Shown piece by piece: positions 8,864-23,081 of a stretch of DNA of 41,189 nucleotides. The stretch spans positions 1 through 41,189 of the IMG/VR virus record IMGVR_UViG_3300042934_001309. One strand, 5' to 3'. The translations under genes were made by a program, and so were the position numbers. The DNA comes from a virus. Within the stretch, counting starts at the first letter, position 1. Each line of letters starts with the position of its first letter. Under the pieces are notes generated by a model. That model was not told the origin of the DNA. It made no database searches and was given only the letters and a program-made list of their open reading frames with translations.

Positions 8864-9031
8864 GGCAGCGAGACCTAGCCATGCCGCTCGCCGGCCCGCC
8901 CCCTCGCGATCGTGTAGAAAGCCTTTCTACACGAGCCGCGCCTTGAGAAGATGCCCGGCTTCGGTCCCTGTTCGTGGCTCCAGAGCGGCATCGCGCCGCG
9001 TGCCGATTATCGAACCGAGGACCGCAGCGCC
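8864..9031. promoter_or_regulatory. Divergent late promoter region between P and O
   Basis: This 168-bp gap separates the leftward P-Q operon from the rightward O operon. Its centre is the 25-bp palindrome at 8910-8934. One operator could serve both directions. By the P2 rule, with the dyad centred about 55 bp ahead of the start of transcription, starts would fall near 8867 leftward and 8977 rightward. No recognisable sigma-70 -35 box is present on either side, as expected of an activator-dependent promoter. Confidence 0.65.
8910..8934. promoter_or_regulatory. Late-operon palindrome, copy 1 (candidate Ogr operator)
   Basis: A perfect 12-bp inverted repeat around a single central base: arm TCGTGTAGAAAG, centre C at 8922. 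Copies 2 and 3 (18641-18665, 23014-23038) match it at 23 and 22 of 25 positions. All three sit immediately ahead of late operons. The half-site TGTAGA/TCTACA resembles the TGT...ACA pattern of P2 Ogr sites, though with shorter internal spacing. The phage's Ogr-type protein is encoded at 35176-35523. Confidence 0.75.
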
Positions 9032-9868
9032 ATGGGCAAGCAGAGCCAGCTATTCCGCGTTTTCGTCGAGGGCGAAACGATCAGCGACGGTCGCAAGATC
9101 ACCGCCGACATGATCGACGATTGCGTCGCCACCTTCGATCCCAAGACCTACACCCCCCGCATCAACATCGAACATATCGCCGGCTACAGCCCGGAGCCGC
9201 CCTTCAACGGCTATGGTGATGTGATCGCGGTCGAGGCGCGCGATGACGAATTCACAATCGCCGGCGAGACCAAGAAGCTGCGCGCGCTCTATGCGCAGGT
9301 CGACGCCAACGACCAGCTGGTGAAGCTCGCCCAGGCCGATCAGAAGCCGTTCCCCTCGGTCGAACTCACCCCCAGCTACGCCGGCAGCGGCAAGGTCGGC
9401 CTGGTCGGCCTCGCCTTCACCGACACGCCCGCCTCGATCGGCACGGAACGCCTGAAGTTCTCCAGCCGCGCACCCGGCACGATCTTCGCCCATGGCGCCG
9501 ACGCTGTCGCGATCGAGTTCGAAGCTGCGCCCGGTGATCCGGCCAAGGTCGAGAGCGCCGTTGCCGGCTTCTTCTCGGCGCTGACCGCCAAGTTCAAGGG
9601 GGGCGAGGCTAACAAGTTGAAGGAAGAGCCGACGCCGAAGGCGGCGAACGACAACTTCGACGTGGCCGCATTCACGACCGAGCTGCAGGTAGCGGTCAGC
9701 GGTTCAATCGCTGCAGCGCTGGCGCCCTACGCCGCCACGCAGACCGCCATGCAGGGCGAGTTCGCGGCCCTGAAGGCGAAGCTGGCGTCGAGCGAAGCAC
9801 CCAGCGGCTTCTCGCGCGCGCCGCATGCCGGCGGTGCGGTCGACGCCCAGTTCGCCACCGACTGCTGA
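9032..9868 (+). CDS. O: Capsid scaffold and maturation protease (P2 gpO)
   Basis: This 278-residue protein helps assemble the procapsid and then cleaves capsid proteins. The start at ATG 9032 is fixed by family register. It places D19 (ISDGR), H48 (NIEHIAG) and S109 (FPSVELTP) at almost the P2 gpO catalytic positions (recalled as D19, H48, S107). An upstream ATG at 8951 in the same frame would add 27 residues unlike the family. The C-terminal third is the helical scaffold part (FAALKAKLASSE). It opens the rightward late operon, about 110 bp from the palindrome at 8910-8934, and a weak GAGGA lies upstream. Confidence 0.93.
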   Translation: MGKQSQLFRVFVEGETISDGRKITADMIDDCVATFDPKTYTPRINIEHIAGYSPEPPFNGYGDVIAVEARDDEFTIAGETKKLRALYAQVDANDQLVKLAQADQKPFPSVELTPSYAGSGKVGLVGLAFTDTPASIGTERLKFSSRAPGTIFAHGADAVAIEFEAAPGDPAKVESAVAGFFSALTAKFKGGEANKLKEEPTPKAANDNFDVAAFTTELQVAVSGSIAAALAPYAATQTAMQGEFAALKAKLASSEAPSGFSRAPHAGGAVDAQFATDC

Positions 9869-9918
9869 TCCCAGACCGCCACCCCCTTTCCGCCTCTCGC
9901 CTACCCGGAGCTTCGCCC

Positions 9919-10974
9919 ATGCAGACCGCCACTCGCCTCCTGTTCAACAGCTACGTCGGCACCCTTGCCCAGCTAAACAACCTCGACCCGTCGCTCACCG
10001 TCATCCCCGGCGAGCTGAAGCAGTTCGCCGTCGCGCCGGTGATTGAACAGCGCCTGCAGGCCAAGCTGCAGCTGACCAGCGACTTCATGAGCCGCATCAA
10101 TGTCGTGCCGGTCGCGGCGCAGCAGGGGGACCGTGTCGGCGTCGGCGTTGGTCGCTCGCTCGCGAGCCGCACCGACACCTCGGGCGGTGACCGTCGCAAT
10201 CCGACCGATCCGACCAAGTCGGACAAGATCGACCAGTATTTCTGCAAGAAGACCAACTACGATTATTCGTGGGGCTACACGCTGCTCGATGCCTGGGCGC
10301 ACCGTCCCGAGTTCCAGCAGCTCGTCCGCGATGCCGTGCTGGTGCAGAAGGCTGAAGACGTCATCACGATCGGCTTCAACGGCACCAGCGCCGCTGCCAC
10401 GACCGACCGCGACGCCAATCCCCTGCTGCAGGACGTCAACTGGGGCTGGCTCTACAAGATGCGCCAGAATGCGCCGTCGCGGGTGATGAGCCACGGCACG
10501 AAGGACACCGCCAAGGTCTACGTGTCCGACACCGGCACCGCCGACTATGTCAATCTCGACGCGCTGGTCTTCGACGCGATCGGCAACCTGATCCATGAGC
10601 GGTATCGCACCGCGACCGATCTGGTCGTGATCGTCGGCTCGGATCTGGTGCAGGAGAAATACTTCAAGATCATCAGCGAGGCCGGCGACAAGGCGACCGA
10701 GCAGGTCGCCCGCGACATCATCATGTCCAGCCGCCAGCTGGGCGGGAAGCCGACCATGCAGGTGCCGTTCTTCCCGCCGAACGCCATCCTCATCACCAGC
10801 CTCAAGAACCTGTCCTATTACTGGCAGATCGGCTCCGCGCGCCGCGCGGTGAAGGACGAGCCGGAATACGACCGGATCGCCAACTATGAGAGCATCAACG
10901 ACGCTTTCATGGTCGAGGATTACGGCAAGGCCTGCCTGATCGAGAACATCCAGCTCGGGCCGAAGGCGGCGTAA
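9919..10974 (+). CDS. N: Major capsid protein (P2 gpN)
   Basis: The 351 residues match P2 gpN (about 357) throughout: RLLFNSYVGTLAQLN at the start, FMSRINVVPVAAQQGDRVGVGVGRSLASRTDT, then the HK97-fold core ending GGKPTMQVPFFPPNAILIT and SIQ-type tail IENIQLGPKAA. It forms the icosahedral shell after cleavage by gpO. The start ATG 9919 has a GGAG 9-12 bases upstream. It lies 50 bp after O and before M in the conserved O-N-M-L order. Confidence 0.95.
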   Translation: MQTATRLLFNSYVGTLAQLNNLDPSLTVIPGELKQFAVAPVIEQRLQAKLQLTSDFMSRINVVPVAAQQGDRVGVGVGRSLASRTDTSGGDRRNPTDPTKSDKIDQYFCKKTNYDYSWGYTLLDAWAHRPEFQQLVRDAVLVQKAEDVITIGFNGTSAAATTDRDANPLLQDVNWGWLYKMRQNAPSRVMSHGTKDTAKVYVSDTGTADYVNLDALVFDAIGNLIHERYRTATDLVVIVGSDLVQEKYFKIISEAGDKATEQVARDIIMSSRQLGGKPTMQVPFFPPNAILITSLKNLSYYWQIGSARRAVKDEPEYDRIANYESINDAFMVEDYGKACLIENIQLGPKAA

Positions 10975-11024
10975 CCGCCTCCGCGCCCCACCAGCTGCCC
11001 GCCCTCTCGCTTTCGGATACGATC

Positions 11025-11912
11025 ATGAGCCCTGCTCGCCTTCATCGGGAACGCCTCGCCGCTGCTGCGGCTGTGCTTGGCCCGTCCTCGGTCGTTTCAA
11101 CCGTAGAGGGCGGGCAACCACCCATGCCCGCCATGACGCCGGCGCTGGAACACCGCCTCACCACGGCGCTCGCCGCCAGCGTGGGACAGTGCGATGCCGA
11201 CGTGCAGCTCGCGATCGGTGTCGACCCGGCCGTTGCTCAGATCATGCTGCGCCTGACCCATGACCTGCGCCGGCTGAAAGAGATCGCCTCGATCGAGGCG
11301 AAGATCGAGGCCAAGCGCGGCATGCTGCCCGAATATCGGGACTGGTGCGATCTGCGCCTCGCTGCCGGCGCGGCAGCCGAGGGCAACGAACTGCCGTCGA
11401 CCGGCGCTGACGACGTGCTGCCGACCATGATGATCTGGTCGATCGACACCGCTGACTGGGCGCGCGCGCTTGAACTGGCCGCGCATGTCCTGCGCTTCAA
11501 TGAGCCGCTGCCGACGCGCTACCAGCGCGGCGCTGCGGCGCTGATCGTGGAAGAGATCGCCAGCGCCGCCATCAAGGCACAGACGCGCGACGAAGCTTTC
11601 CCGCTAGACGTCCTCGAACAGGTCGACGCGCTCACCGTGCGTGTCGACATGCACGACGAGATCCGCGCCAAGCTGATGAAGGCGATCGGCGTTGAGCTGG
11701 CCCGCGCAGCCGGAGAACTCGAACACGGAACCCCGGAACATCTCGCCGCGGTCGGCAAGGCCCTCGTGCCGCTTCGCCGGGCGCAGGATCTGCACGATCG
11801 CGTCGGCACCAAGGGCACGATCAAGCAGCTCCAGAAGGTGCTGGCCAACGCTGCCAAGGAACAAGCCGCGCTCGCGGCACAGGAACAGGCCGGCACCGCG
11901 CCGGCCGCATAG
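11025..11912 (+). CDS. M: Terminase small subunit / endonuclease (P2 gpM)
   Basis: The 295-residue protein binds the cos/pac site and presents DNA to gpP. Recognisable gpM pattern: SPARLHRERLAAAAAV at the N-terminus, DLRRLKEIASIEAKIEAKRGMLPEYRDWC (about 85-115), the TMMIWSIDTADWARALELAAHVLRF segment, and a C-terminal LRRAQDLHDRVGTKGTIKQLQK followed by an alanine/glutamine-rich tail. It is longer than P2 gpM (about 247 residues) because of an N-terminal insertion around residues 25-60. It lies between N and the small membrane-protein gene in the late operon. Confidence 0.9.
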   Translation: MSPARLHRERLAAAAAVLGPSSVVSTVEGGQPPMPAMTPALEHRLTTALAASVGQCDADVQLAIGVDPAVAQIMLRLTHDLRRLKEIASIEAKIEAKRGMLPEYRDWCDLRLAAGAAAEGNELPSTGADDVLPTMMIWSIDTADWARALELAAHVLRFNEPLPTRYQRGAAALIVEEIASAAIKAQTRDEAFPLDVLEQVDALTVRVDMHDEIRAKLMKAIGVELARAAGELEHGTPEHLAAVGKALVPLRRAQDLHDRVGTKGTIKQLQKVLANAAKEQAALAAQEQAGTAPAA

Positions 11913-12029
11913 CTCGCCCCCCGGCGCTCGGGGGCAGATCGCGCGAGACGGGAGGGCCTTCGGGCTGAGGGCCGTCGATCGACCCGATCTCCACCCCCGT
12001 TTGCCAGTGGGCGGAACAGGATCGAAAAC

Positions 12030-12272
12030 ATGCCGCAGCTCGCGCAACATATGCTTGCCACCATGCTGGTCGCGCTCGGCGGCTGGTTCACCTTCGCCGG
12101 CGCGATCGCCGCGGCGGTGCCCGAGGCGCTCGCGCTGTCCGACGTCCTCGCCGGCTATCGCATCGGGCCGATCGCCGCCCGCCACACCCGTCTGCTTGCC
12201 TTGCTGCTTGCGCTGCTCGGGATCCTGCTGTTCGTCACTGGCGCGCTGGTCGCGGTTCGCAGCTTCCCATGA
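12030..12272 (+). CDS. Small two-helix membrane protein, 80 aa
   Basis: Two strongly hydrophobic helices (about residues 7-32 and 55-75) flank a short polar loop; the N-terminus is MPQLAQHMLATMLVALGGW. It has no equivalent between M and L in P2. Its stop overlaps the ATG of L (ATGA), so it is translated with the late operon. It could be a second holin-type or anti-holin protein, or a small moron. A holin candidate is already present at 12973, so the role is left open. Confidence 0.65.
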   Translation: MPQLAQHMLATMLVALGGWFTFAGAIAAAVPEALALSDVLAGYRIGPIAARHTRLLALLLALLGILLFVTGALVAVRSFP

Positions 12273-12754
12273 CCGGTTTCCCGCTCCCGATCGTCGACAA
12301 TGGCGCCGATGACGTACCCGCCGTCGAGGCGCCGATCGTCAACGACGGCTTCTTCCCCGACGTCGATCCTGCGCTGTTCGCGCGCGAGATGCGCGTGCGC
12401 GAAGCCGTGACGCCCGAACGGCGCCGTCGCGCGCTGATCGACGCGATCATTACGGTCGGCAATCAGCTCGCCGCATGGCGCGATCGGCAGCTGCTCGCGA
12501 CCAGCGCAACGCTCGCCGACGTGCCCAGCCCCGCGGTCGACGGGGAAAGCCGCCTCGTCCAGCTCTACCACACCGCCGTCTTCAGCGAGGCCAAGGCGAA
12601 GCTCGTCGAGCGCTATCGCGACGCCGACATCACCCGCGCCGGCAAGGATCAGGTCGAGGATCTCGATCCGTCGATCGGCGAGCTGCGGCGCGATTCGGTC
12701 TACGCCGTGCGCGACATCCTCGGCGTCGGTCGCGTGGCGGTCGAGCTGATCTGA
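12269..12754 (+). CDS. L: Head completion/stabilisation protein (P2 gpL)
   Basis: The 161-residue protein matches the gpL pattern, with FFPDVDPALFAREMRVREAVTPERRRRALIDAI in the first half and TAVFSEAKAKLVERYRDADITRAGK, then LRRDSVYAVRDILG at the end. gpL caps the portal after DNA packaging. The ATG overlaps the stop of the preceding membrane-protein gene, and its own TGA overlaps the ATG of X by one base, so the genes are tightly coupled. Confidence 0.88.
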   Translation: MTGFPLPIVDNGADDVPAVEAPIVNDGFFPDVDPALFAREMRVREAVTPERRRRALIDAIITVGNQLAAWRDRQLLATSATLADVPSPAVDGESRLVQLYHTAVFSEAKAKLVERYRDADITRAGKDQVEDLDPSIGELRRDSVYAVRDILGVGRVAVELI

Positions 12755-12969
12755 TGGCCGACACCCTCACCGCGCGACAGGGCGACACGCTCGACGGGCT
12801 GATCTGGCGCGAGCGTGGCCTCGGGATCGAGGACTGCCCCGCCGTCCTCGCCGCCAATCCCGGTCTCGCGTCGCTCGGCCCCACCCTCCCGGCCGGCACC
12901 GCCGTCACCATTCCCGCGATCTCCGCGCCGGCGCTCCCGGTTCGCGACATCGTCCAGCTCTGGAGCTGA
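12754..12969 (+). CDS. X: Tail protein X, LysM-like (P2 gpX)
   Basis: The 71 residues run ARQGDTLDGLIWRERG ... VLAANPGLASLGPTLPAGTAVTIP ... VRDIVQLWS, the LysM-like fold of P2 gpX (67 residues), including the ending around V-LW. gpX is a small baseplate/tail component. The ATG at 12754 overlaps the last base of the L stop codon. It is followed after 3 bp by the holin gene. Confidence 0.9.
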   Translation: MADTLTARQGDTLDGLIWRERGLGIEDCPAVLAANPGLASLGPTLPAGTAVTIPAISAPALPVRDIVQLWS

Positions 12970-12972
12970 CGC

Positions 12973-13326
12973 ATGGACAAACACCTTCATGAGATCACCG
13001 ACGCGGTCCTGTCGTTCCTGATCAGCCTGGTGCCCTCCGCGCTCGGCGCGACGGTCAGCATGCTGGTCGATGACGGGATCACCTGGGGCAAGATGTTCGC
13101 CCGCCTCTGGGTCGGCATCGTCGTCAGCTATTTCGTGAAGGGCGCGCTGGTCGCCCTCCTGTCGCTGCACCCCTTCGTGGTCGACGCGATCAGCTTCCTC
13201 ACCGGCATGGTCGCCTACAAATCCGCGCCCGGCTTCATCGCCGGCTGCTCGGCCGCGATCGGCGAGGCGCCCGGCCTGATCCGCGATCGCCTGCTCGCCT
13301 TCCTGCCTTCCAAGGAGAAGAAGTGA
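12973..13326 (+). CDS. Putative holin
   Basis: This 117-residue membrane protein has hydrophobic helices at about 10-30, 45-65 and 70-88 and a charged basic C-terminus (PSKEKK). It occupies the P2 gene Y (holin) position between X and the endolysin, and its stop overlaps the endolysin start (TGATG). Holins accumulate in the cytoplasmic membrane and set the time of lysis. With a signal-anchor endolysin next door, it may be a pinholin that only collapses the membrane potential. The call rests on position and topology; holins share little sequence. Confidence 0.75.
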   Translation: MDKHLHEITDAVLSFLISLVPSALGATVSMLVDDGITWGKMFARLWVGIVVSYFVKGALVALLSLHPFVVDAISFLTGMVAYKSAPGFIAGCSAAIGEAPGLIRDRLLAFLPSKEKK

Positions 13327-13817
13327 TGCCCGCCAGGAGCCGAAAGTCGCTCGCCGGTGTCGTCGGCCTCGCCTGCGCCCTGCTGCTCGCGCCGTTCGTG
13401 TCGGGCTGGGAAAGCGGCGGTAAGCCGCGCCTCGATGCCTATCAGGACATCGTCGGTGTCTGGACGATCTGCGATGGTGAGACCGAGGGCGTGAAGCCCG
13501 GCATGCGCGAGACGCTCGCCGGCTGCGCCGCCCGCAACGAGGCCGCCCTGATCCGTCACGCCGAGCCTGTCCTCGCCTGCACGCCAACCTTGCGCGGCCA
13601 CCCGCACCAGCTCGCCGCGGCCGTGTCGCTCGCCTACAACATCGGCACCGGCGCTTACTGCCGCTCGACCGTCGATCGACGCTTCGATGCCGGCCGGTGG
13701 CGTGCCGCCTGCGATGCCTTCCTGATGTGGAACAGGGCAAGCGGAAAGGTCGTGAACGGGCTCGTGCGTCGCCGCCAGGCGGAACGCGATCTTTGCCTGA
13801 AGGATCTGCCGCGATGA
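13326..13817 (+). CDS. Endolysin, GH24 lysozyme with signal-anchor N-terminus
   Basis: The 163-residue T4/P21-type lysozyme cuts the peptidoglycan glycan strand. The catalytic triad is E29 (WESGG), D41 (YQDIVG) and T47 (VWTIC). Residues about 9-27 form an uncleaved-looking, weakly hydrophobic signal-anchor segment rich in A, G and L, ending right at the catalytic Glu, as in SAR endolysins such as P21 R. Such enzymes are exported by Sec and stay inactive until released from the membrane. The start is ATG 13326; a GTG directly before it would add one residue. It overlaps the holin stop and the spanin start. Confidence 0.9.
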   Translation: MPARSRKSLAGVVGLACALLLAPFVSGWESGGKPRLDAYQDIVGVWTICDGETEGVKPGMRETLAGCAARNEAALIRHAEPVLACTPTLRGHPHQLAAAVSLAYNIGTGAYCRSTVDRRFDAGRWRAACDAFLMWNRASGKVVNGLVRRRQAERDLCLKDLPR

Positions 13818-14281
13818 TCCGCTCCGTATTCGCATGGGTGCGCGCGGAGGCGACCTTCCTCGTCCTGCTCGCCGTGGCCGCTGCCGGCGCATACCTCTAC
13901 GTCGAGGTGCAGCGGATCCGCGCCGATCGCGACGATCTGCTGCACACGGCCGAGAAGATCTGCGCCCGCGCCGGCGCGGATTGGGCAGCCACGAAGGAGG
14001 CGAAGCGCGGCGTCCTGTGCGCCCGCCGCGCGGCCGAGCTGGCGACGTTCAAGAGCACCGCCGATCAGGAAACCGCCCGCCTGCTCGCCGCGGCAATGGA
14101 GGACGCCAATGCCCGCGCCGCCCGCGACCTGCGGAGCGCCAGCACCTCCGCCGCGCGCATGCGCGACGCCCTTAGCCGAATGGAGAACGCCGATGCGCAA
14201 GCCGAGCGCCGCAACCTTGTCGATCGTGAGTGGACTGCTGCTGTCAACGGTGTTGCCGGGCTGCGCCCACCGGGCCGCTGA
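13814..14281 (+). CDS. Rz-like inner-membrane spanin
   Basis: The 155-residue protein has one N-terminal membrane helix (about 13-32, ATFLVLLAVAAAGAYLYVEV) followed by a periplasmic coiled coil rich in A, R, E and D with two cysteines (CARAG, VLCAR). This is the architecture of i-spanins that join the inner membrane to an outer-membrane lipoprotein and fuse the two at lysis. The start overlaps the endolysin stop (ATGA). The 3' 89 bp overlap the next gene in another frame, the typical Rz/Rz1 nesting. Confidence 0.85.
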   Translation: MIRSVFAWVRAEATFLVLLAVAAAGAYLYVEVQRIRADRDDLLHTAEKICARAGADWAATKEAKRGVLCARRAAELATFKSTADQETARLLAAAMEDANARAARDLRSASTSAARMRDALSRMENADAQAERRNLVDREWTAAVNGVAGLRPPGR

Positions 14282-14525
14282 TCTCCCGTCGGCGCCTGCG
14301 CCGATCGCGATCAAGGTCGAACCCCCTCGCCCGCCGGCCGAGCTGCTCGCCTGCGCCGAACGCCCAGCCGGTCTGCCCGAGGATCCCGATCTGATCGCGC
14401 AGATCCCCACTCGGTTGCGCGCCGGCATCATCCGCCTGGCGCAGGCATTCGGTGCCAATGCCGATCGGCAAGATCGCCTGATCGATTGGGCGGCTCCCGG
14501 CACCTGCCGGAAGGTGGCGCCGTGA
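14193..14525 (+). CDS. Rz1-like outer-membrane spanin lipoprotein
   Basis: The start is ATG 14193, with GGAG about 8 bases upstream. The N-terminal signal peptide ends in a lipobox, STVLPGC, with the lipidated cysteine at residue 24. It is followed by a proline-rich stretch (SAPAPIAIKVEPPRPPAEL). It is 110 residues, longer than Rz1 of lambda. Its 5' end lies inside the Rz-like gene in a different frame, and its stop overlaps the GTG of R. Partner of the preceding spanin. Confidence 0.85.
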   Translation: MRKPSAATLSIVSGLLLSTVLPGCAHRAADLPSAPAPIAIKVEPPRPPAELLACAERPAGLPEDPDLIAQIPTRLRAGIIRLAQAFGANADRQDRLIDWAAPGTCRKVAP

Positions 14526-15007
14526 AGAAGGCCGATAGCCTGAAGGCGCTGCTGCTCGCCTCGGTGCCGGCGCTGAAGGCTGATCCGGCAAAGCTCGCGT
14601 TGTTCGTCGACAAGGGCAAGGTATCGTCCGTGCGCAGCAACACGCTCGCCTTTCAGCTCAGCTATACGGCGACCATCTGGATCGAGGCTTATGGCGGCGA
14701 TCTCGACGGCCTGTTCGTGCCGATCCTCGCGTGGATCGCGCAGAATCAGCCCGAGCTGATCGACCGACCCGATGGCGAACCCTTCACCTTCGAGTCCGAA
14801 CTCCTCGATAGCGACACGGCGGATATCTCAATCGAGATCGAGCTGACCGAGCGCGTGCTGATCGAACGCCGCGACGACGGCAAGCTGCGCACGCGCCACC
14901 TCGACGATGCGGCGATTGCCGACGTTTTCGCTGGCGCCGAGCAAACGCGCCTTTGGCGAGCGGTGCTCGATGATCAGGTCGCCAACCACAACCCGATGCC
15001 AGCATGA
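14522..15007 (+). CDS. R: Tail completion protein R (P2 gpR)
   Basis: The 161 residues starting at GTG 14522 (VKKADSLKALLLASVPAL) match P2 gpR (155): LFVDKGKVSSV, FQLSYTATIWIEAYGGDLDGLFVPILAWI, and the signature DTADISIEIELTERVLI. gpR joins the tail terminus to the head. Start and stop overlap the neighbouring genes (GTGA and ATGA), keeping the late operon contiguous. Confidence 0.92.
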   Translation: MKKADSLKALLLASVPALKADPAKLALFVDKGKVSSVRSNTLAFQLSYTATIWIEAYGGDLDGLFVPILAWIAQNQPELIDRPDGEPFTFESELLDSDTADISIEIELTERVLIERRDDGKLRTRHLDDAAIADVFAGAEQTRLWRAVLDDQVANHNPMPA

Positions 15008-15462
15008 ACGATCTGACGCAGATCAACGATCTGGCCGGCGCGCTGCTCGCTCGGTTCGCGCCAGCTTCACGCCGTAACCTGCTCGGCCGTATTGCTCGCG
15101 ATATCCGCAAGAGCCAGGCGGACCGGATTGGTCGCCAGCTGCAACCCGACGGCACCCGGTTCGAACCTCGCAAAGCGGCCGCGACCTCCAGTAAGCGCCG
15201 AAAGGGGAAGCTCCGCCAGAAGATGATGTTCCGCAAGCTGCGGCTCGCCAAGTTCCTGAAGGCCGGCGCGACGCCGAATGAGGCGTGGATCGGATTTGCC
15301 GGCCGCGCTGCCTCAATCGCCTCTGTTCACCAGCATGGCCTGACTGACCGCCCTGTCCGCGGCGCCAAAAAGGTCCGTTACGCCCAGCGCGTGCTGCTCG
15401 GCCTTACGGATGGCGAGCAGGATCGCGCGCTGGATTTGCTGCTAGACGAAATCTCTCCCTAA
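15004..15462 (+). CDS. S: Tail completion protein S (P2 gpS)
   Basis: The 152 residues match P2 gpS (150): NDLAGALLARFAPASRRNLLGRIARDIRKSQADRI at the start, a very basic middle, and AWIGFAGRAASIASVHQHG..., ARVLLGLTD-type ending. It acts with R in finishing the tail. It is the last gene of the first rightward late operon; 11 bp beyond its stop is a short hairpin (AGCGG/CCGCT at 15473-15487). Confidence 0.92.
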   Translation: MNDLTQINDLAGALLARFAPASRRNLLGRIARDIRKSQADRIGRQLQPDGTRFEPRKAAATSSKRRKGKLRQKMMFRKLRLAKFLKAGATPNEAWIGFAGRAASIASVHQHGLTDRPVRGAKKVRYAQRVLLGLTDGEQDRALDLLLDEISP

Positions 15463-15477
15463 CTGCCGTCAGAGCGG

Positions 15478-15543
15478 GCTGTCCGCTTTCGAGATCGCTA
15501 ACCTCGGCCGCCAACGTCCGAGATTGGGTGGTTAGCAGAACAG
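15478..15543 (-). repeat. Cargo-block intergenic element, copy 1 (divergent)
   Basis: Shares TGTCCGCTTTCG and ATTGGGTGG with the other three copies, and can fold through GCTAACC (15497-15503) with GGTTAGC (15530-15536) plus CTCGG/CCGAG inside. It lies downstream of the lipoprotein gene that ends at 15578. Confidence 0.5.
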
Positions 15544-15577
15544 CGGCTTCGGAACGGACTAGATCGAAAGCCGACAC

Positions 15578-16015
15578 TTACCCATGACCGTTGCACTTCG
15601 CGGATGCGACCGTTCGCGAGCGAATGTCATATACGACCTCGATAAAGTCGCAGCCCCCGTCGTTAGCAGCTGGCAGGTGTACATCGTTACCAAACCAGCG
15701 GCGCTCGCCAGCCTCTAAACCATCCGGCGATGGGCAGGCCAAGGCGACCTGTCCGTTCGTTCGTCCGCCTTTTTTAGCTCCTTCGCAGAACCACGGGTCA
15801 TGCTGGCCATCTGGAACGAAGTAGAAGGCCTCCACGCGATCAGCGGACCCGAACTTGTAGGCACGGGCAAATCTCTCAATCTTCCCTGCCTCCCGGGGAA
15901 GTAGCACCTTTTGCTCGATTTGATCCATAAGTTCGGCCTGCTGACGCTTCTCAGGCGATGAGCACGCCGCCATCAAAAAGGCAGCGGCGAGGACAAAGCG
16001 AAGTCTCATAGTCAT
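15578..16015 (-). CDS. Hypothetical lipoprotein, 145 aa (cargo)
   Basis: The start is placed at ATG 16015 (MTMRLRFVL); a start two codons later is equally possible. The signal peptide ends in FLMAACSS, a plausible lipobox with cysteine at about residue 18. The mature part is charged and contains several cysteines (WFCEG, LACPSP, GGCDFIE, SAKCNG), so disulfides in the periplasm are likely. No family recognised. It is encoded against the direction of the surrounding late operons and starts a series of leftward cargo genes, which suggests it is expressed from its own promoter in the lysogen. Confidence 0.65.
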   Translation of the reverse strand: MTMRLRFVLAAAFLMAACSSPEKRQQAELMDQIEQKVLLPREAGKIERFARAYKFGSADRVEAFYFVPDGQHDPWFCEGAKKGGRTNGQVALACPSPDGLEAGERRWFGNDVHLPAANDGGCDFIEVVYDIRSRTVASAKCNGHG

Positions 16016-16082
16016 CACTGTCGCACTTGGCTCCAACGTCCGCAATCGCCGAAGGTCTACTCGACACTGGGTGACTGGTATT

Positions 16083-16158
16083 GGGGCGCTTCGTGCCTGT
16101 CCGCTCTCGGAATCGCCTTACCGCACAAGAACGACATAGATTGGGTGGAAAGCGGACG
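16083..16158 (-). repeat. Cargo-block intergenic element, copy 2
   Basis: About 76 bp starting GGGCGCTTC, including CCTGTCCGCTCTCGG and ending ATAGATTGGGTGGAAAG, then CGGACG. TGTCCGCT and AGCGGAC can pair across it. It ends 2 bp from the stop codon of the gene at 16160-16387. Confidence 0.65.
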
Positions 16159-16159
16159 C

Positions 16160-16387
16160 TTATTGATCGGCGATAGCCCGCCGCAATCCGGCCCGATAGC
16201 GTTCAACATGCTGTTCTGCCGCGATGCGCTTCCGCTTCGCGTCGTGCCAAGCCCACAGAAAGCCCAACGGCATGATCAGCATGGGCAGGAAGGCCCAGAG
16301 TGCTCGCGGTAGGTCCAACGGCAGGGCGACGTAGAGCGAGAGCGCGACAAACCCGCCGAACGACATGATGCTTAACGCCAACATCAT
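16160..16387 (-). CDS. Small two-helix membrane protein, 75 aa (cargo)
   Basis: ATG 16387 is chosen because GGAG precedes it (ACGGAGCGGATGATG). A longer frame exists upstream but overlaps the neighbouring repeat and lacks a site. Two membrane helices (about 1-24 and 30-50) are followed by a basic cytoplasmic tail (AWHDAKRKRIAAEQHVERYRAG). Function unknown. Its stop codon abuts repeat copy 2 and the next repeat lies upstream, so gene and repeat form one unit. Confidence 0.6.
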   Translation of the reverse strand: MMLALSIMSFGGFVALSLYVALPLDLPRALWAFLPMLIMPLGFLWAWHDAKRKRIAAEQHVERYRAGLRRAIADQ

Positions 16388-16521
16388 CCGCTCCGTGAAC
16401 CTGTCAGGTGATGACGGCGGCACAAACGGTTGAAGAACAAGCGGACGCGTTCGCTTTGAACTGGGGATGCGCATCGAGCGAACAATGCCTGATCGTCCGT
16501 TCACCCGCAATGACCGCTTTT

Positions 16522-16600
16522 GGGGCGCTTCCTGCCTGGCGACTTTCGGAGTCCGCCTCGGCGTTACTGGACGGCTGCGAGTGGGTGGGAAGCGGACATA
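16522..16600 (-). repeat. Cargo-block intergenic element, copy 3
   Basis: About 79 bp, GGGGCGCTTCCTGCCTG at one end and GTGGGTGGGAAGCGGACATA at the other. It ends 9 bp from the stop codon of the gene at 16610-16906. The middle is the least conserved part. Confidence 0.6.
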
Positions 16601-16609
16601 ATCGCCGTT

Positions 16610-16906
16610 CTACTGACAACCCTTCGGATGAACTTGCAAACTGTGCTCGCGACGAACGAGCGATATGGTGGCCCCTACAGTACAGGCACCGAGAAGCATC
16701 GGCGTGGACCGCAGTTCTTGGGTGCCGCCGTCGCGAAATCGCACGATCACCGTAGGATGGTTTCCGATTTCGTCAGCGTAGCTTCCGAACCGAACGACAC
16801 TTGCCACCTCGACCACAGAAGGTCCCGAAGATCGATACCCACCCGTAATGATCGCTGCCAATGCTACTAAGGCAAACGCCAAAACTACCTTCCACTCGCC
16901 AAGCAT
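16610..16906 (-). CDS. Hypothetical single-helix membrane-anchored protein, 98 aa (cargo)
   Basis: I choose ATG 16906 (MLGEWKVVLAFALVALAAI) since the frame upstream encodes cysteine- and histidine-rich sequence without protein-like character. One N-terminal helix (about 5-24) precedes a small beta-rich domain (VVEVASVVRFGSYADEIGNHPTVIVRF). Two cysteines near the end (LLGAC, PKGC). No family recognised. Followed by repeat copy 3. Confidence 0.55.
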   Translation of the reverse strand: MLGEWKVVLAFALVALAAIITGGYRSSGPSVVEVASVVRFGSYADEIGNHPTVIVRFRDGGTQELRSTPMLLGACTVGATISLVRREHSLQVHPKGCQ

Positions 16907-16963
16907 TGAGCGCCACAGACTGTCCACGCAGCACCGATAACAGAAAGTGTAATGTCTGGAAGT

Positions 16964-17040
16964 GGGGCGGTTCCTGCCTGTCCGCTCGTGGAATGCCCCA
17001 CCGTGCAAGAGCGGCCTAGATTGGGTGGAAAGCTGACATA
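16964..17040 (-). repeat. Cargo-block intergenic element, copy 4
   Basis: About 77 bp, GGGGCGGTTCCTGCCTGTCC at one end and CTAGATTGGGTGGAAAGCTG at the other, followed by ACATA. It ends 4 bp from the stop codon of the Sel1-like gene. It is the closest relative of copy 2. Confidence 0.65.
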
Positions 17041-17043
17041 GAC

Positions 17044-17520
17044 TTAAGCGAACTCGTCCCGCTTCTGCTTCGGTCGTAGCCGCCGCACTCTGCCGGCGTC
17101 AGCGTGCCAAAGCCGAGTTTCAAATCGCCTGCGTTCTCGCCTTGCTTCGCCGTCACCCGCTTGTGCTCCGAGACCAAGCCAGTGCCGATACCCGGCCATG
17201 TCGTTTTGATTGAAGCGGCTCAACGCCATGTGCTGGGCTGCGCGCAGGTCGCCTCTTTTGTATGCCCGCCGATATAGTCCAGCCGCGCTAAAGGCGTCCG
17301 CGGGCTTGCCAAACGGATCGGAGCTTCCATCGTTAGAGAACCAATCGGCAAGCTCGATCATCGCCCCTGCGTGTCCGCGTAGAGCGAGGTGCCACATGAT
17401 CGGCAGCCACTTACCAATGTGCCGCTCATATCGGATCGCCAAGCCCTTCAGGTAGAGCCGGTCCGCAGGCGTGTCGTCGTTTATGCGTTCCACGGCGCGA
17501 CCTTCGCACATGGTTTTCAT
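17044..17520 (-). CDS. Sel1/TPR-like repeat protein, 158 aa (cargo)
   Basis: The product is built of helical pairs resembling Sel1-like repeats: HLALRGHAGAMIELADWFSND, AAGLYRRAYKRGDLRAAQHMALSRFNQ, YRHWLGLGAQAGDGEARRERRRFE. Such repeats bind partner proteins and are common in bacterial secreted or regulatory proteins. No signal peptide is evident in the start MKTMCEGRAVERIN, so it is probably cytoplasmic, unlike its neighbours. A 54-bp sequence shared with the region upstream of the next gene lies at 17611-17664, about 90 bp ahead of this gene's start. Confidence 0.65.
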   Translation of the reverse strand: MKTMCEGRAVERINDDTPADRLYLKGLAIRYERHIGKWLPIMWHLALRGHAGAMIELADWFSNDGSSDPFGKPADAFSAAGLYRRAYKRGDLRAAQHMALSRFNQNDMAGYRHWLGLGAQAGDGEARRERRRFETRLWHADAGRVRRLRPKQKRDEFA

Positions 17521-17610
17521 GTCCGCTATTGGGGCGTAAGCGGAACGTCCGCTTTTCCGCCCGAAAGCTGCCGAACTCGCGCATATCTGCGGCTCTTGCG
17601 CCCTGCCCTT

Positions 17611-17664
17611 CGGTTTACGTGCATTGCAGGCTTGACGCAGGTTGACGCGACTTGGAACACTGAA
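17611..17664 (-). repeat. 54-bp repeat upstream of the Sel1-like gene
   Basis: Matches 18463-18516 without gaps at 47 of 54 positions. Both copies lie upstream of a leftward cargo gene, so they may carry related promoters or 5' leader elements. Confidence 0.7.
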
Positions 17665-17690
17665 GTCCGTGGCGCACGTGGAGCCAAGTG

Positions 17691-18350
17691 CTACAGCGGC
17701 GATGCTAAGCCGGCCCGAGCGTCCAGCATGTAGCGGACAGTGCCTGTGCCACCGCGATACTCAATGCAGGTCACCTCGTAGACGCCCTCGCGCATTTGAA
17801 GAGGCGATATGTCTAGCACTTTCGCGCAAAGATGACGGTTCAGGTTAATGATTGTCGCGGCTAACTTCTCGACGTCAGCGCCTTCACCGGCGCCGGATCG
17901 GCTATACATGTCTGGCAGGCTTTCGCCCCGGTCCTTAAAGCTGGGATCAACGGCGTTCCGCGTTTGAAGTGCCCCCTTTTCCGAGACGCTGATGCCGAGT
18001 GTCTGATCGCACTTGATGTCCCAGGAAAGCTGACTTCGAGTTGCGTCGCTACTGACTTTGATCGACTTTACTTCACGGCACATATCCTGAAGGGCACTTC
18101 GGCCAGCCCACATCGCGAGCGCGTTCGCGTCGGCGAAACGCTCCTTGCCCAGCTTGCGATAGAGCCCACTGTCCTTCTGGCGGGTAAGCGGCTTCCAAGC
18201 ATCACCCTTGATATGCTGGTCAAGGGCGGCGATCTTCTGCTCAGACGTTACAACCACTGCCTTTGCCTTGGGCGCGGCTGCGGGTTCAGGCTCTGCTGAC
18301 GAACAGCCGGTTACGACGAAGCCTGCGGCGAAGATGAAGCGTCTCAGCAT
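17691..18350 (-). CDS. Hypothetical lipoprotein, 219 aa (cargo)
   Basis: A short signal peptide (MLRRFIFAAGFVVTGCSS) ends in the lipobox VTGC, giving a lipidated cysteine at residue 16, followed by a proline/alanine-rich linker. The mature domain contains four cysteines (QDMC, IKCDQ, HLCAK, VTCIE), likely disulfide-paired in the periplasm. No known family. It is the first gene of the leftward series and is followed by the 54-bp repeat. An envelope lipoprotein expressed from a prophage could change surface properties or phage adsorption, which is speculation here. Confidence 0.7.
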   Translation of the reverse strand: MLRRFIFAAGFVVTGCSSAEPEPAAAPKAKAVVVTSEQKIAALDQHIKGDAWKPLTRQKDSGLYRKLGKERFADANALAMWAGRSALQDMCREVKSIKVSSDATRSQLSWDIKCDQTLGISVSEKGALQTRNAVDPSFKDRGESLPDMYSRSGAGEGADVEKLAATIINLNRHLCAKVLDISPLQMREGVYEVTCIEYRGGTGTVRYMLDARAGLASPL

Positions 18351-18462
18351 TCCTGCTCAAATTCCTGCCTGTATGCCGGGCGCGTTCCGCAACGGCGTGC
18401 GCTACGGTGCGTGCGAACCGTTAAAGACACGTGCACCTTCGAGCGCAACTCCGCCCCCTTTT

Positions 18463-18516
18463 CAGTTTACATGCATTGCAGGCTCGACGCAGCTTTACGC
18501 GAGTTGGAACGCTGAA
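18463..18516 (-). repeat. 54-bp repeat upstream of the lipoprotein gene
   Basis: Second copy of the sequence at 17611-17664. It lies about 113 bp ahead of the start at 18350, in the gap that separates the leftward cargo genes from the rightward J operon. Confidence 0.7.
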
Positions 18517-18640
18517 AAGCGCCGCTAACGCCGGGGACTGAGTGGATTTCGGCCGGCCGCTTTTGGGATGAGCACCGCGCATAGCGGGCGGCCGATGTTG
18601 GGGGGTAGCTGCCGGACCGCTTAACCAGCCTTTATGTTAG

Positions 18641-18665
18641 TCATGTAGAAAGCCATTCTACACGA
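18641..18665. promoter_or_regulatory. Late-operon palindrome, copy 2 (candidate Ogr operator)
   Basis: TCATGTAGAAAG, central C at 18653, then CATTCTACACGA. It differs from copy 1 at only two of 25 positions (18643 and 18655). It lies ahead of the J-I-fibre operon. The centre is 60 bp from ATG 18713. Confidence 0.75.
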
Positions 18666-18712
18666 GCGCGGCATAGCCAGGCGCGCGCGTGCCGCACGAC
18701 ATGGCCGGCATC

Positions 18713-19606
18713 ATGGCCGCCAGCTCCTCCACCGTTGATCTTTCGCGCTTGGCTGCGCCGACCATCGTCGAGCAGCGCACCTTCGAGCAGATCCTCACCG
18801 ATATGATCGCTGCTGTGCAGCAGCTGATGCCGGCGTTCGATGCGACAATCGACAGCGACCCTGCGGTCAAGGTGCTTCAGGTCGCGGCCTACCGCGAGTT
18901 CCTGATCCGCGGCGCCTTTCAGGATGGCGCGCTGCAGCTGCTCGTCGCCTATGCCACCGGGCTCGCGCTCGATCACCTCGGCGCCTTGGTCGGTGTCGCT
19001 CGCCTCACCATTGCGCCGGCCGACCCGGCCCCGGGCCGCCCCGCAGTGATGGAGGCTGACGAGGCCTTTCGTCAGCGCATCGTGCTTGCTCCCGAAAGCT
19101 TCTCCAGCGCCGGGCCCGAGCTGGCCTATGTCGCCCACGCCAAGGGCGCGAGCGCCGAAGTGCTCGACGCGACCGCCAGCTCGCCCGCGCCTGGCGTCGT
19201 GCGCGTCTCAATATTGTCGACGCAAGGCGACGGCACTGCCTCGGCCCAGCTCGTCGATGCCGTCGACGCCGTCGTGAACAGTCCAGCGATCAGGCCGCTC
19301 GGCGATGCTGTCACGACCACCTCGGCCACGATCCGCAATTTTGAGATCCGCGCAGTGCTGATCACCTATTCCGGTCCCGACATCTCGATCGTGCTGGACG
19401 AGGCGCGCAGGGCACTGGCCGGTTTCAATGCGGAGAACCGCAAGCTCGGTCGGTCAATCACGCGCTCAGGCATCATTGCCGCCCTTTCCGTCGCTGGCGT
19501 GCATCGCGTGGATCTCGCCAGCCCAGCCGCTGACGTTATCTGTGATGCGACCGAAGCGGCTTGGCCCATTGCGATCGACGTTTCGCATGGCGGCTACGCG
19601 GCATGA
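18713..19606 (+). CDS. J: Baseplate assembly protein J (P2 gpJ)
   Basis: The ATG at 18713 gives MAASSSTVDLSRLAAP, matching the P2 gpJ start (M..IDLSQLPPP). In-frame GTG 18689 and ATG 18701 are possible alternatives. No Shine-Dalgarno is visible ahead of any of them. The 297 residues (P2: about 302) carry AYREFLIRGAFQDGALQLLVAYATG, the baseplate core, and the ending EAAWPIAIDVSHGG. gpJ forms the edge of the baseplate wedge. It opens the second late operon. Confidence 0.93.
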   Translation: MAASSSTVDLSRLAAPTIVEQRTFEQILTDMIAAVQQLMPAFDATIDSDPAVKVLQVAAYREFLIRGAFQDGALQLLVAYATGLALDHLGALVGVARLTIAPADPAPGRPAVMEADEAFRQRIVLAPESFSSAGPELAYVAHAKGASAEVLDATASSPAPGVVRVSILSTQGDGTASAQLVDAVDAVVNSPAIRPLGDAVTTTSATIRNFEIRAVLITYSGPDISIVLDEARRALAGFNAENRKLGRSITRSGIIAALSVAGVHRVDLASPAADVICDATEAAWPIAIDVSHGGYAA

Positions 19607-20247
19607 GCCTGCTGCCGCCCAATGCGACCCGGCTTGAACGTGCGCTGGAGCATGGCATTGCCCGGCTGAGCGATGTCACCGCGCCGATCGACACGCTGGT
19701 CAATCCGCAGACCATCGCCGCCAGCGTATTGCCATGGCTCGCGTTCGGCCTCTCGGTCGATAGCTGGGATGCGACATGGCCAGAGGCGCTGAAGCGCCAG
19801 GCAGTCGCGGAATCGATCGCGCTCCACCGGATCAAGGGCACACGGCGATCGGTTGAGATGGTGCTCGCCCGGCTCGATCGGCTCGCCACCATCGTTGAAT
19901 GGCACGAGGATCCCGCCCGCCTGCCGCCACACGTCTTCGAGGTGCATGTGCCACTGGTGGAGATCGCCAGGGCGGCGGGCGGCAAGCGCGCCAGCGCTGC
20001 GATCATCGACGAGATCATTGCCGAGGTCGGTCGTGTCAAACCGCTCCGCGAGCATTTGCGCGTGGTGCAGACGCTGTTCGCGGGCGGAGCGGTCGGCATT
20101 CAGGGCGCAGGTCGCCTCGTCTCCTACACGCGCGATGCCACTGATCTGATCGTCGACACCTCGCTCGATTGGGATGCCTGTCTGCAGACCGAACAGGGCG
20201 AGCCGCTCGAAACCGAAACCGGCTCCTTGCTGAGGAACATCCAATGA
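19603..20247 (+). CDS. I: Tail protein I (P2 gpI)
   Basis: ATG 19603 (MSLLPPNATRLERALE) overlaps the J stop as ATGA. The gpI hallmarks are present: LPPNATRLERALEHG, PWLAFGLSVDSWDATWPEALKRQAVAESIALHRIKGTRRSVEMVL. The C-terminal 90 residues are longer than in P2 gpI (214 against 176 residues) and precede the fibre gene. It is part of the baseplate, at the fibre attachment point. Confidence 0.92.
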   Translation: MSLLPPNATRLERALEHGIARLSDVTAPIDTLVNPQTIAASVLPWLAFGLSVDSWDATWPEALKRQAVAESIALHRIKGTRRSVEMVLARLDRLATIVEWHEDPARLPPHVFEVHVPLVEIARAAGGKRASAAIIDEIIAEVGRVKPLREHLRVVQTLFAGGAVGIQGAGRLVSYTRDATDLIVDTSLDWDACLQTEQGEPLETETGSLLRNIQ

Positions 20248-21230
20248 GCAGATTGATCCTCACCATCACCCGGGCAGGGCTGGAACGGTTCACCGCGGCG
20301 CAGCTGGCCGACGACATCGACCTTTCCATCATGTCCGTAGGTCTGACTGACGCGCCGTTCGTTCCGGCGCCGACGCTTGACGCACTGCCTGGCGAGTTCG
20401 AGCGGCTGCAGACAATCTCCGGCGAGCAGGTCGGCGACAATGTCGTTCACATGATCATTCGTGATGACAGCGACGCCAGCTACCACGCCCATGGCTTCGG
20501 CTTGTTCCTCGGCGATGGTACGCTGTTTGCTGCCTACGGCCAAGAAGATCCGTTGTTCGAAAAGTCGCCGCGCGCCGCGCTTCTCGCCGCGATCGACATC
20601 GGCTTCCCCACTGGGGACATCAGCGATTTGCGCTTCGGCGACACCAACTTCCTAAATCCACCGGCGACGACACAGCGGATGGGCGTGGTTCGCCTGGCGA
20701 CCCCCGATGAGGTCGAGGAGGGAACGTCGAGCTCGACGGTCGTCACGCCGGCAGAGCTGCGGCGCATGCTCCCGATCGGCATGATCAGCATCTGGTACGG
20801 AGACGATAACGACACTCCCGTCGGCTGGGCCATCTGCGATGGGCGAGCAGTCGAACGCAGCGATGGCGAGGGCATTGTCACGACGCCGGATCTGCGCGGC
20901 CTCGTGATCGTCGGCGCGGGCGATCGCCCGGCTGGTGAGCGTTTCGGTGCGACGCAACAGCGCACCGCACAGGCCGGCGCACATGCGCATCAGGTGGAAG
21001 TCACCGGCACCACCGCCAACGTCGAAAGCCTCGTGTCACTTAACACCACGCTGAAGAACGACACCGCCGGCGGGGGCACCGGCGATTCCGTTCGTTCGGT
21101 TCAGCTCCTCGATCCCGGTCACTCACACACCGCAACGCTCGCCGGCGCGTCCGCCGAGGCGGGCGCGCACGATCACACCGTCGACGTGACGCAGCCGTCC
21201 ATGTCGCTGTTCTACATCATGAAGGTTTGA
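20244..21230 (+). CDS. Tail fibre with collar domain and HxH motifs (P2 gpH-like N-terminus)
   Basis: The 328-residue protein starts at ATG 20244, overlapping the I stop. The first 150 residues look like the P2 H N-terminal attachment region (LTITRAGLERFTAAQ, FGLFLGDGTLFAAYG). Residues about 177-200 are a phage tail-collar segment (LPIGMISIWYGDDND, then PVGWAICDGR). The distal part has three HxH pairs (AHAHQ, GHSHT, AHDHT), the kind of motif that holds iron or another metal along needle-like fibre tips. It probably recognises the host surface. No assembly chaperone like P2 gpG follows. Confidence 0.85.
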   Translation: MSRLILTITRAGLERFTAAQLADDIDLSIMSVGLTDAPFVPAPTLDALPGEFERLQTISGEQVGDNVVHMIIRDDSDASYHAHGFGLFLGDGTLFAAYGQEDPLFEKSPRAALLAAIDIGFPTGDISDLRFGDTNFLNPPATTQRMGVVRLATPDEVEEGTSSSTVVTPAELRRMLPIGMISIWYGDDNDTPVGWAICDGRAVERSDGEGIVTTPDLRGLVIVGAGDRPAGERFGATQQRTAQAGAHAHQVEVTGTTANVESLVSLNTTLKNDTAGGGTGDSVRSVQLLDPGHSHTATLAGASAEAGAHDHTVDVTQPSMSLFYIMKV

Positions 21231-21233
21231 CTC

Positions 21234-22994
21234 ATGGCCAAGATCTCGGCGCTGCCGATCGTCAATGATCTCGCGGAAGACGTCCAGTTCCCCGTCGTGC
21301 AGAGCCGGATCACCAAGCGTCTCTCGATGCTCATGCTCTCCACGGCGATCGCCGCCTCGCTCCCAAACTATTACAAAGGTGACAAGGGCGATCCCAGCGG
21401 GCCGCTCGGCTTTGAATCCGTCACGGCCGACACGATCAGCAGCGACGACGCAGCCAACATCGCGGACAAGCTCGGCGCGCTTCGTGCCGGCGCCCCTTTT
21501 CGATCGATCGTGCCTGATCCCGGTCAGGGCAGCGCCTCGCTCGAGTTCTTCTTTGAATCCGTATTGGGTCAGCAGCGAGACGGCATGCTGCTTCACATGG
21601 CGGCGGACGGCGAAGGCAGCGGCGCGTACCCGATCCACATCCTCTACTCCGCGGGCAAGGACGTCACCACGGGGGGCGCCTTCGGCGCCGCAGCCAATGG
21701 CAAGGGCCGGTCGTTCGCCGGGGTGTTCAACAAATATGAGGACGGTCCTGGCGGAGGCGCCTCGGGGAACCGCGTGGGCAGCGGTGATGGCTTCGGCCTG
21801 CTCGGCAACTTTGCGAGTTCGGGTACCGGAGCCGCCATCCGCGCGATCAAGCAGAACGTTACTGGAGTTGCCGGCGGGCCGAGCGGGATCGGCCCGGCGC
21901 TGGTGGTTGACAATATCAGCGAAGAGGGCGCCGGTATTGTCAGCACGACGGCCGCGAACACCCGGTCTGCCGTGTCAAATACGTTCGAGCGGCAGAACGT
22001 CACCGCTGGCATCGTTACCCGTGTTCAGATCCTGAAAGGGGGCGAGCGAACCGGCATGCTTAGCGGGCTGGACGTGATTGTAGCGCCGGGCACGCCACTC
22101 ACCGGTGCAGCGCCGATGACCGGTGCTGCGATCACGCTCACGGCGAACGTGCGTGGTTCGGTGGAAGCGACCGGGCTGACGATCGTCAACAATGCCGGTG
22201 GTGGATCCAGCGGTTACGGCACCGTCATCGGCTGCTTTGGAGACAACGACCTCAATACCGGCCTGTTCGCGCAGGCAGCAGGCGGACGATACAACCGTGC
22301 CGCGCGCTTCGACGGCGACATTGCTACCAGCGGCAACATCGTTCCGACCGCTGATGCGGAGCGTAGCCTGGGCGGCCCCGGCGCTCGCTTTTCGACCGTC
22401 TACGCGGCCAGCGGCACCATCAACACCTCAGACGCGCGTGCAAAGATGTGGCGCGGCAGGATGAGCGAGGCGCATCTGCGTGCCGCTCGGCGCATCAGTG
22501 CGCAGATGGGGCTCTATCAATGGCTCGACCAGATCAAGGCGAAGGGCGAAGACGCTGCTCGCGTCCACTTTGGTGCGAAGGCGCAGGATATCATCGAGAT
22601 CTTCTATGACGAAGGGCTCGAAACGCGACCGGCACCTGGCGAACACCCCAGCTTCAGACATGCCTTCCTGTGTTACGACCATTGGGATGACGGCTTCGAA
22701 GACGTCATGGTCCCTGGTCGCGTCAAGAAGCTGGTCACCGTGCCGGTCGACACCGGCGTGCGTGAGTATGGCACGAAGAACCCGGCCAACGACGAAGAGG
22801 ACGCGATCGGCGTTCCCGTTTTCGAGTTCAGGGAGATCGAGCTGGAAGTCGATGGCTTGGTGAAGGATGGCGAGCGCCTCGCCCGCCTAGCGGGCAACCG
22901 CTACGGTTTGCGTATCGGGCAACTCGCCCTGTTCCTCGCCGCCGCCAACGCCGAACGCCTGAGCCGATTGGAGAAGGCGCTGGAAGCGGCCTGA
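21234..22994 (+). CDS. Tail fibre/spike with C-terminal self-cleaving chaperone domain (peptidase S74)
   Basis: In this 586-residue protein, a short collagen-like stretch (KGDKGDPSGP) follows an N-terminal alpha segment. A long glycine-, serine- and threonine-rich beta region comes next, then the conserved S-D-A-R-A-K motif with S399 and K404. In S74 intramolecular chaperones this serine-lysine pair drives self-cleavage just ahead of the serine, after the trimer has folded. The remaining 188 residues, ending in a helix (LAAANAERLSRLEKALEAA), would be released. It lies 3 bp after the collar fibre and ends the second late operon. Confidence 0.85.
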   Translation: MAKISALPIVNDLAEDVQFPVVQSRITKRLSMLMLSTAIAASLPNYYKGDKGDPSGPLGFESVTADTISSDDAANIADKLGALRAGAPFRSIVPDPGQGSASLEFFFESVLGQQRDGMLLHMAADGEGSGAYPIHILYSAGKDVTTGGAFGAAANGKGRSFAGVFNKYEDGPGGGASGNRVGSGDGFGLLGNFASSGTGAAIRAIKQNVTGVAGGPSGIGPALVVDNISEEGAGIVSTTAANTRSAVSNTFERQNVTAGIVTRVQILKGGERTGMLSGLDVIVAPGTPLTGAAPMTGAAITLTANVRGSVEATGLTIVNNAGGGSSGYGTVIGCFGDNDLNTGLFAQAAGGRYNRAARFDGDIATSGNIVPTADAERSLGGPGARFSTVYAASGTINTSDARAKMWRGRMSEAHLRAARRISAQMGLYQWLDQIKAKGEDAARVHFGAKAQDIIEIFYDEGLETRPAPGEHPSFRHAFLCYDHWDDGFEDVMVPGRVKKLVTVPVDTGVREYGTKNPANDEEDAIGVPVFEFREIELEVDGLVKDGERLARLAGNRYGLRIGQLALFLAAANAERLSRLEKALEAA

Positions 22995-23007
22995 CGACAA
23001 AACCGCA

Positions 23008-23044
23008 GGCCGGTCGTGTAGAATAGCTTTCTACACGACCGGCC
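23008..23044. terminator. Long inverted repeat over palindrome copy 3, possible terminator of the fibre operon
   Basis: Palindrome copy 3 is extended on both sides by GGCCGG/CCGGCC, giving arms of 16 bp around a 5-nt centre. It starts 14 bp after the fibre stop codon. As RNA it would be a very stable hairpin, though no T-run follows, so termination is only possible. Its DNA form may matter more, as an operator. Confidence 0.4.
23014..23038. promoter_or_regulatory. Late-operon palindrome, copy 3 (candidate Ogr operator)
   Basis: TCGTGTAGAA, central TAGCT, then TTCTACACGA. It matches copy 1 at 22 of 25 positions, with all differences in the centre. It lies ahead of the V-W-FI-FII-E-T-U-D operon. 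The centre at 23026 is 56 bp from ATG 23082. Confidence 0.75.
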
Positions 23045-23081
23045 ACTCGCACTCGCGAACGTGCCGCGCATGGTCGCGGTC

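Follow-up and report, generated by a model that had tools for sequence, protein, structure and literature searches.

What reads the three near-identical 25-bp palindromes that stand ahead of the late operons of this prophage? The window, by which we mean the whole stretch of 41,189 nucleotides analysed here (IMG/VR record IMGVR_UViG_3300042934_001309), contains the P2 late genes P, Q, O, N, M, J, V, FI, T and D, and its genes match contigs of a Sphingomonas MAG at 100% identity. We propose that the palindromes are very probably operators of the prophage's own Ogr/Delta activator (35176-35523), placed ahead of the late head and tail genes.

Palindrome copies and late genes of the window

The sites and genes concerned are the following, in window positions:

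7013..8863, minus strand, P (terminase large subunit), heads the leftward late operon P-Q
8910..8934, candidate operator copy 1, between the divergent P and O, letters TCGTGTAGAAAGCCTTTCTACACGA
9032..9868, plus strand, O (scaffold/protease), first gene of the O-N-M... operon, start inferred from conservation
18641..18665, candidate operator copy 2, ahead of J, letters TCATGTAGAAAGCCATTCTACACGA
18689..19606, plus strand, J (baseplate), heads the J operon, start probably 18713
23014..23038, candidate operator copy 3, ahead of V, letters TCGTGTAGAATAGCTTTCTACACGA
23061..23633, plus strand, V (baseplate spike), heads the V-FI-T-D operon, start probably 23082
33618..34277, minus strand, CI-like S24/HTH repressor, divergent from the 34682-ogr operon
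34682..35179, plus strand, phrog_38866 gene, overlapping the ogr start
35176..35523, plus strand, ogr, Ogr/Delta activator of 115 aa with a C4 zinc finger, presumed to read the operators

All three sites have the general form TCGTGTAGAA-N5-TTCTACACGA. Copy 1 is a perfect dyad with 12/12 paired arm positions, 10 of 12 pairs are kept in copies 2 and 3, and identity to copy 1 is 23 of 25 positions for copy 2 and 22 of 25 for copy 3. The core TGTAGAA-N5-TTCTACA has three exact matches (0 mismatches) in the whole window, and no fourth core site was found there even when up to 3 mismatches were allowed. Shuffled windows held 0.19 core sites on average, and three sites were reached in 0 of 100 shuffles. 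An earlier sequence-only reading had given the coordinates, letters and 22 to 23 of 25 identities of the copies, their absence from the rest of the window and their place before P/O, J and V; all of this was exact on recheck, gene identities included. It had also set a gap of about 7 bp between half-sites against about 12 bp in P2. That contrast does not hold, as it compared half-sites of unequal length: the 7 bp arise because six-base half-sites were used, and by the P2-style count all three window sites are TGT-N13-ACA.

The ogr product matches Ogr_Delta (Pfam: PF04606) at 1.1e-13 and PHROG 603 (transcriptional regulator) at 4e-19. Its cysteines follow exactly the C-x2-C-x22-C-x4-C spacing that the same reading had named, with the motif beginning at residue 16. 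A sequence search found no solved structural relative of Ogr. The phrog_38866 gene adjoins ogr also in relatives with longer records, and the two genes probably share one operon. The divergent position of the CI-like gene relative to this operon suggests an order of repressor, then Ogr, then late genes.

A tRNA-Arg (CCT) lies at 1734-1810, near the left end of the window, and a tyrosine integrase at 39912-41189, at its right end; these ends of the record are a possible attachment site.

Promoter geometry

Two putative late promoters flank copy 1:

8942..8973, plus strand, putative O late promoter, with CTTGAGA as -35 region (about +20, counted from the operator centre) and TCCCTGTTCG as -10 region (about +43)
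8872..8884, minus strand, putative P late promoter, with the block TGGCTAGG as -10 region (+38 to +48, counted likewise)

When promoters are aligned on the operator, CTTGAGA (about +20) and TCCCTTT/TCCCTGTTCG (about +43) recur in 21 distinct O promoters, and the block GGCGTGGCTAGG is conserved at +38 to +48 across 27 distinct P promoters. Read as -35 and -10 regions, these blocks fit an operator centre at about -55 to -57 of the predicted late starts. Copy 1 has its centre at 8922; the distance to the start codon is 59 bp for P and 110 bp for O (9032). The O start at 8951 chosen by the ORF caller falls within the promoter region, and conservation indicates a start at about 9032.

About 56-62 bp separate the operator centre from the start codons of P (8863), J (18713) and V (23082), and the same holds in relatives. 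At this distance, late mRNAs would have no leader or almost none under a -55 geometry, which suggests that the late mRNAs of P, J and V are leaderless in this phage group. If transcription starts are nearer to the operator, the geometry would depart from that of P2. No clear Shine-Dalgarno sequence is seen at the P, J and V starts of the window and its relatives.

Conservation in related phages

Relatives were gathered by a gpO search, which gave 6 genome loci and 23 viral contigs (29 records). With at most 3 mismatches, the palindrome is present upstream of O in the window and in all 29 relatives except L006, L014 and L032, of which L032 is an incomplete stretch and L006 has a diverged palindrome at the equivalent place upstream of O. 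The arms covary among the relatives (TCG..CGA, TCT..AGA, TCA..) and the centre is variable. In longer relative records, copies stand before P/O, J and V nearly always where the region is present and intact, and a relative of ogr sits at the opposite end. The palindrome thus recurs in other sphingomonad P2-like prophages at the same three places, as the sequence-only reading had proposed to check. Relatives with cargo between P and O have two palindromes, each at the standard distance from its gene, so the site belongs to each promoter and is shared as a single copy in the compact layout.

Four related phages also carry a lopsided operator, TCTTGGCGAAACGCTTTCTACAAGA, with one half intact and the other altered, between ogr and the integrase side and upstream of a small ATGATG... 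gene (L047:4708, L059:5078, L061:1721 and L066:17705; a similar one is at L058:12713). It is possibly a weak fourth Ogr site, and it is absent from the window.

Specificity in viral contigs and Sphingomonas genomes

The 25-bp form, which replaced the 14-base core for this purpose, was scanned over the 2.9 million viral contigs of IMG/VR. Of the 103 distinct matches, 99 precede P, O, J or V by 20-190 bp. The remaining four comprise one with the O-promoter blocks (L332), two that look V-like (L348 and L317) and one true exception (L326); the first three lie at the edge of a contig or stretch. When only the 14-base core was used, most contigs among the matches listed have a single match, as chance predicts.

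The perfect core is nearly confined to prophages when whole genomes of Sphingomonas, 3-5 Mb in size, are examined. Across 250 Sphingomonas genomes we found 49 perfect core sites in 19 genomes, compared with 1 for a reversed-pattern control. Scattering of the palindrome over the host genome, named beforehand as an outcome that would speak against an operator, was not seen, but a few perfect copies do lie outside prophages, a point against the operator reading. Ogr was detected in 46 of the 250 genomes, namely in 14 of the 19 with a perfect core and in 32 of the 231 others (Fisher p 5e-8). Two of the five core-bearing genomes without Ogr (G006 and G211) are prophages recovered only in part.

A perfect TCTTGTAGAAAGGCTTTCTACAAGA lies in a segment of about 2.4 kb common to four Sphingomonas genome loci (L099:2731, L101:2203, L103:2174 and L105:9684). 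The segment has a large serine recombinase, apparently beside a tRNA gene, and is near contig ends; it could be a satellite-like element that borrows the late operator, or an attachment site. The same palindrome occurs at L100:9281 and L326:9713 in apparently related non-P2 contexts; that of L100 stands between convergent genes and looks more like a terminator hairpin. At L104:9901 the palindrome is part of a long, perfect inverted repeat that spans about 60 bp overall; a tyrosine-recombinase-like ORF is about 500 bp away, and no Ogr was detected in that genome. Single perfect copies in host-like contexts are found at L110:9800, flanked by a pyridoxamine-oxidase-type stress protein-like ORF and a putA-like ORF, and at L108:10145.

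Candidate operator variants and covariation with Ogr

Sphingomonas Ogr prophages that lack the TGTAGAA palindrome have other palindromes at the same positions, which we grouped as follows:

TGTAGAG: G069b, G222, G252, G005
TGTGGRA: G162, G255, G172
TGTGGAA with N14: G157, G144
TGTGAAA with N14: G204, G173
GGTGGAA with N14: G036
CGTAGAG: G080, G141, G189
CCGTTGGAG/CCGGTAGAG: G003, G169
classical TGTTGT-N13-ACAACA: G077b, G094, G117, G123

In a prophage on a plasmid of Zymomonas CP4 (CP006891; L174), the upstream regions of P/O, J and V hold a quite different palindrome, with dyads of the TTTCCCATCG..CGATGGGAAA type.

For 45 phages, whose Ogr proteins form 30 clusters at 80% identity, operator distance was compared with protein distance. 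Operator sites were picked by position and symmetry and each string was confirmed in its sequence; G060, G061 and G078 were excluded from the statistics, their operator being not alignable. Spearman correlation was 0.63 for Ogr, 0.61 for V, 0.47 for N, 0.39 for M and 0.26 for J. The partial correlation between operator and Ogr was 0.41-0.63 when controlling in turn for N, J, V and M, and the structural genes retained little correlation with operator distance, V excepted (0.36). This covariation supports Ogr as the likely reader of the sites. Since V tracks the operator nearly as well as Ogr does, linkage contributes to the signal, and linkage to the right half of the genome is not fully separated from causation.

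Among the 30 Ogr clusters, several residues show no overlap between TGTTGT readers and the rest, including those at window residues 29, 39 and 62. Residue 29 is Arg in the TGTTGT readers, P2 and 186, and C, V, T, E or others in the remaining Ogr proteins. Residues 41 and 50 divide the N14 from the N13 phages. Given the clade structure and the small classes, these associations may serve as leads. Tentatively, and at slightly less than an even chance, sphingomonad P2-like prophages would hold about ten mutually distinct Ogr/operator specificities, including a change from N13 to N14, at invariant promoter positions, with a readable code in which Arg29 and residue 62 would stand for TGTTGT and residues 41 and 50 for the spacing.

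Proposed late control by Ogr and other explanations

The co-occurrence and covariation could also arise if the palindromes were operators of a different phage or host regulator (such as a host factor, the CI-like repressor or what the 34682 gene encodes) that Ogr merely accompanies. The V protein shows that linkage alone can give a strong correlation, the 34682 gene lacks a functional annotation and adjoins ogr wherever both are seen, and a few genomes lacking Ogr hold isolated perfect copies. Operator letters that vary by Ogr class within one host genus are not what a host factor would yield, host genomes are nearly free of copies outside prophages, and the equivalent positions of phage 186 are bound by an Ogr homologue, so that we consider a different regulator improbable. 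The reading of the palindromes as CI operators was rejected, as the window scan found no copy near CI, neither in the CI-like repressor region nor in the CI-ogr intergenic region.

Stems of 10 bp with a 5-nt loop could instead form RNA hairpins, with a role in terminating or processing transcripts of the late operons on either side; two of the copies lie between operons, and the arms covary in relatives. We regard this as very improbable, because the palindrome keeps a constant position with respect to the promoter blocks and start codons downstream, and where P and O are apart a new copy appears at each start. The terminator form was rejected on the divergent transcription at P/O, where no terminator is needed, and on the missing T-run after the stems. 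That the palindromes are chance or low-complexity sequence without function, for which only the general frequency of palindromes speaks, is refuted by their conservation, as well as by the shuffles, the 250-genome control and the IMG/VR positions, and has a negligible probability.

Operators of the phage's own Ogr, as the sequence-only reading had suggested, thus have strong support from positional conservation, rarity elsewhere and co-occurrence and covariation with Ogr, and we infer binding from these. In this scheme, relief of the CI-like repressor would allow transcription of the 34682-ogr operon, and Ogr would be made. Ogr would then bind both TGTAGAA half-sites (overall TGT-N13-ACA) and recruit host RNA polymerase at operators centred about 55-58 bp upstream of the late starts. 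Copy 1 would act both ways, on P-Q and on O-N-M; the J operon would be served by copy 2 and the V-to-D tail operon by copy 3.

We know of no settled account of how the small Ogr/Delta zinc finger reads DNA. Through P/O, J and V each phage has three built-in copies of its operator, so the specificity of any Ogr can be read from its genome. With the 45-phage table, Ogr specificity becomes directly testable with natural variants, and a recognition code could be derived from the series of Ogr/operator pairs. The table also supplies a ready marker of P2-like prophages and of elements possibly borrowing late control from them.

Comparison with known systems

By all features that could be tested, the system is a P2-type Ogr late-control module, with Ogr as its predicted binder. 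Like the B system of phage 186, it has a C4 zinc-finger activator and one site common to divergent P- and O-type promoters. The annotated B sites of 186 centre at about -55 to -58 of the promoters, the relation predicted for the window sites; in the 186 record, the site at 3798-3817 is common to p12 and pV, and that at 14091-14110 serves pJ, with a start at 14159. The 186 sites (TTGT...TCCA) are poorly symmetric, whereas the window dyad is nearly perfect with TGTAGAA half-sites. In addition, no site of their own is annotated before the V and J homologues of 186, in which pJ precedes the tail sheath gene.

P2 Ogr, which acts at PP, PO, PV and PF, shares with the window the activator family, the Cx2Cx22Cx4C spacing and the TGT...ACA ends. 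P2 sites are TGT-N12-ACA (PMC3931495), and this exact spacing was not found in the three window sites, all of which are N13. The late operons also differ, being VWJIHG and F...D in P2, and the J operon and V-FI-T-D in the window.

For the Stenotrophomonas phage Smp131, a layout of PP'/PO' with one common site, PJ' and PV' has been proposed (PMC3931495). Smp131 thus resembles the window in its P/O-J-V layout, and its Ogr homologue has the same cysteine spacing, but its proposed sites are TGT-N12-ACA-like. We confirmed no clear palindromes at the published site coordinates of the Smp131 record and compare it for layout only.

The sites of Ralstonia RSA1/RSY1 are TGTTGT-X13-ACAACA (PMC5694545), and Burkholderia KS5 has GGTTGT-N13-ACAACC-type sites before P/O, V and FI. 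These phages share the 25-bp TGT-N13-ACA geometry of the window exactly, and differ in the letters: their conserved letters lie outside the TGT (TGTTGT/GGTTGT) and those of the window inside (TGTAGAA), with outer TCG/TCA and inner AGAA. As N13 already occurs in these phages, the geometry is old. The new late-control specificity claimed by the sequence-only reading therefore stands for the TGTAGAA letters and falls for the spacing.

The literature searched contained no report of Ogr sites in sphingomonads. Already known are the P/O-J-V layout (as the Smp131 proposal), the shared P/O site (186) and the N13 geometry; new are TGTAGAA as a half-site, the half-sites related to it, the existence of two spacing classes and an operator that can be read from the P/O-J-V triple.
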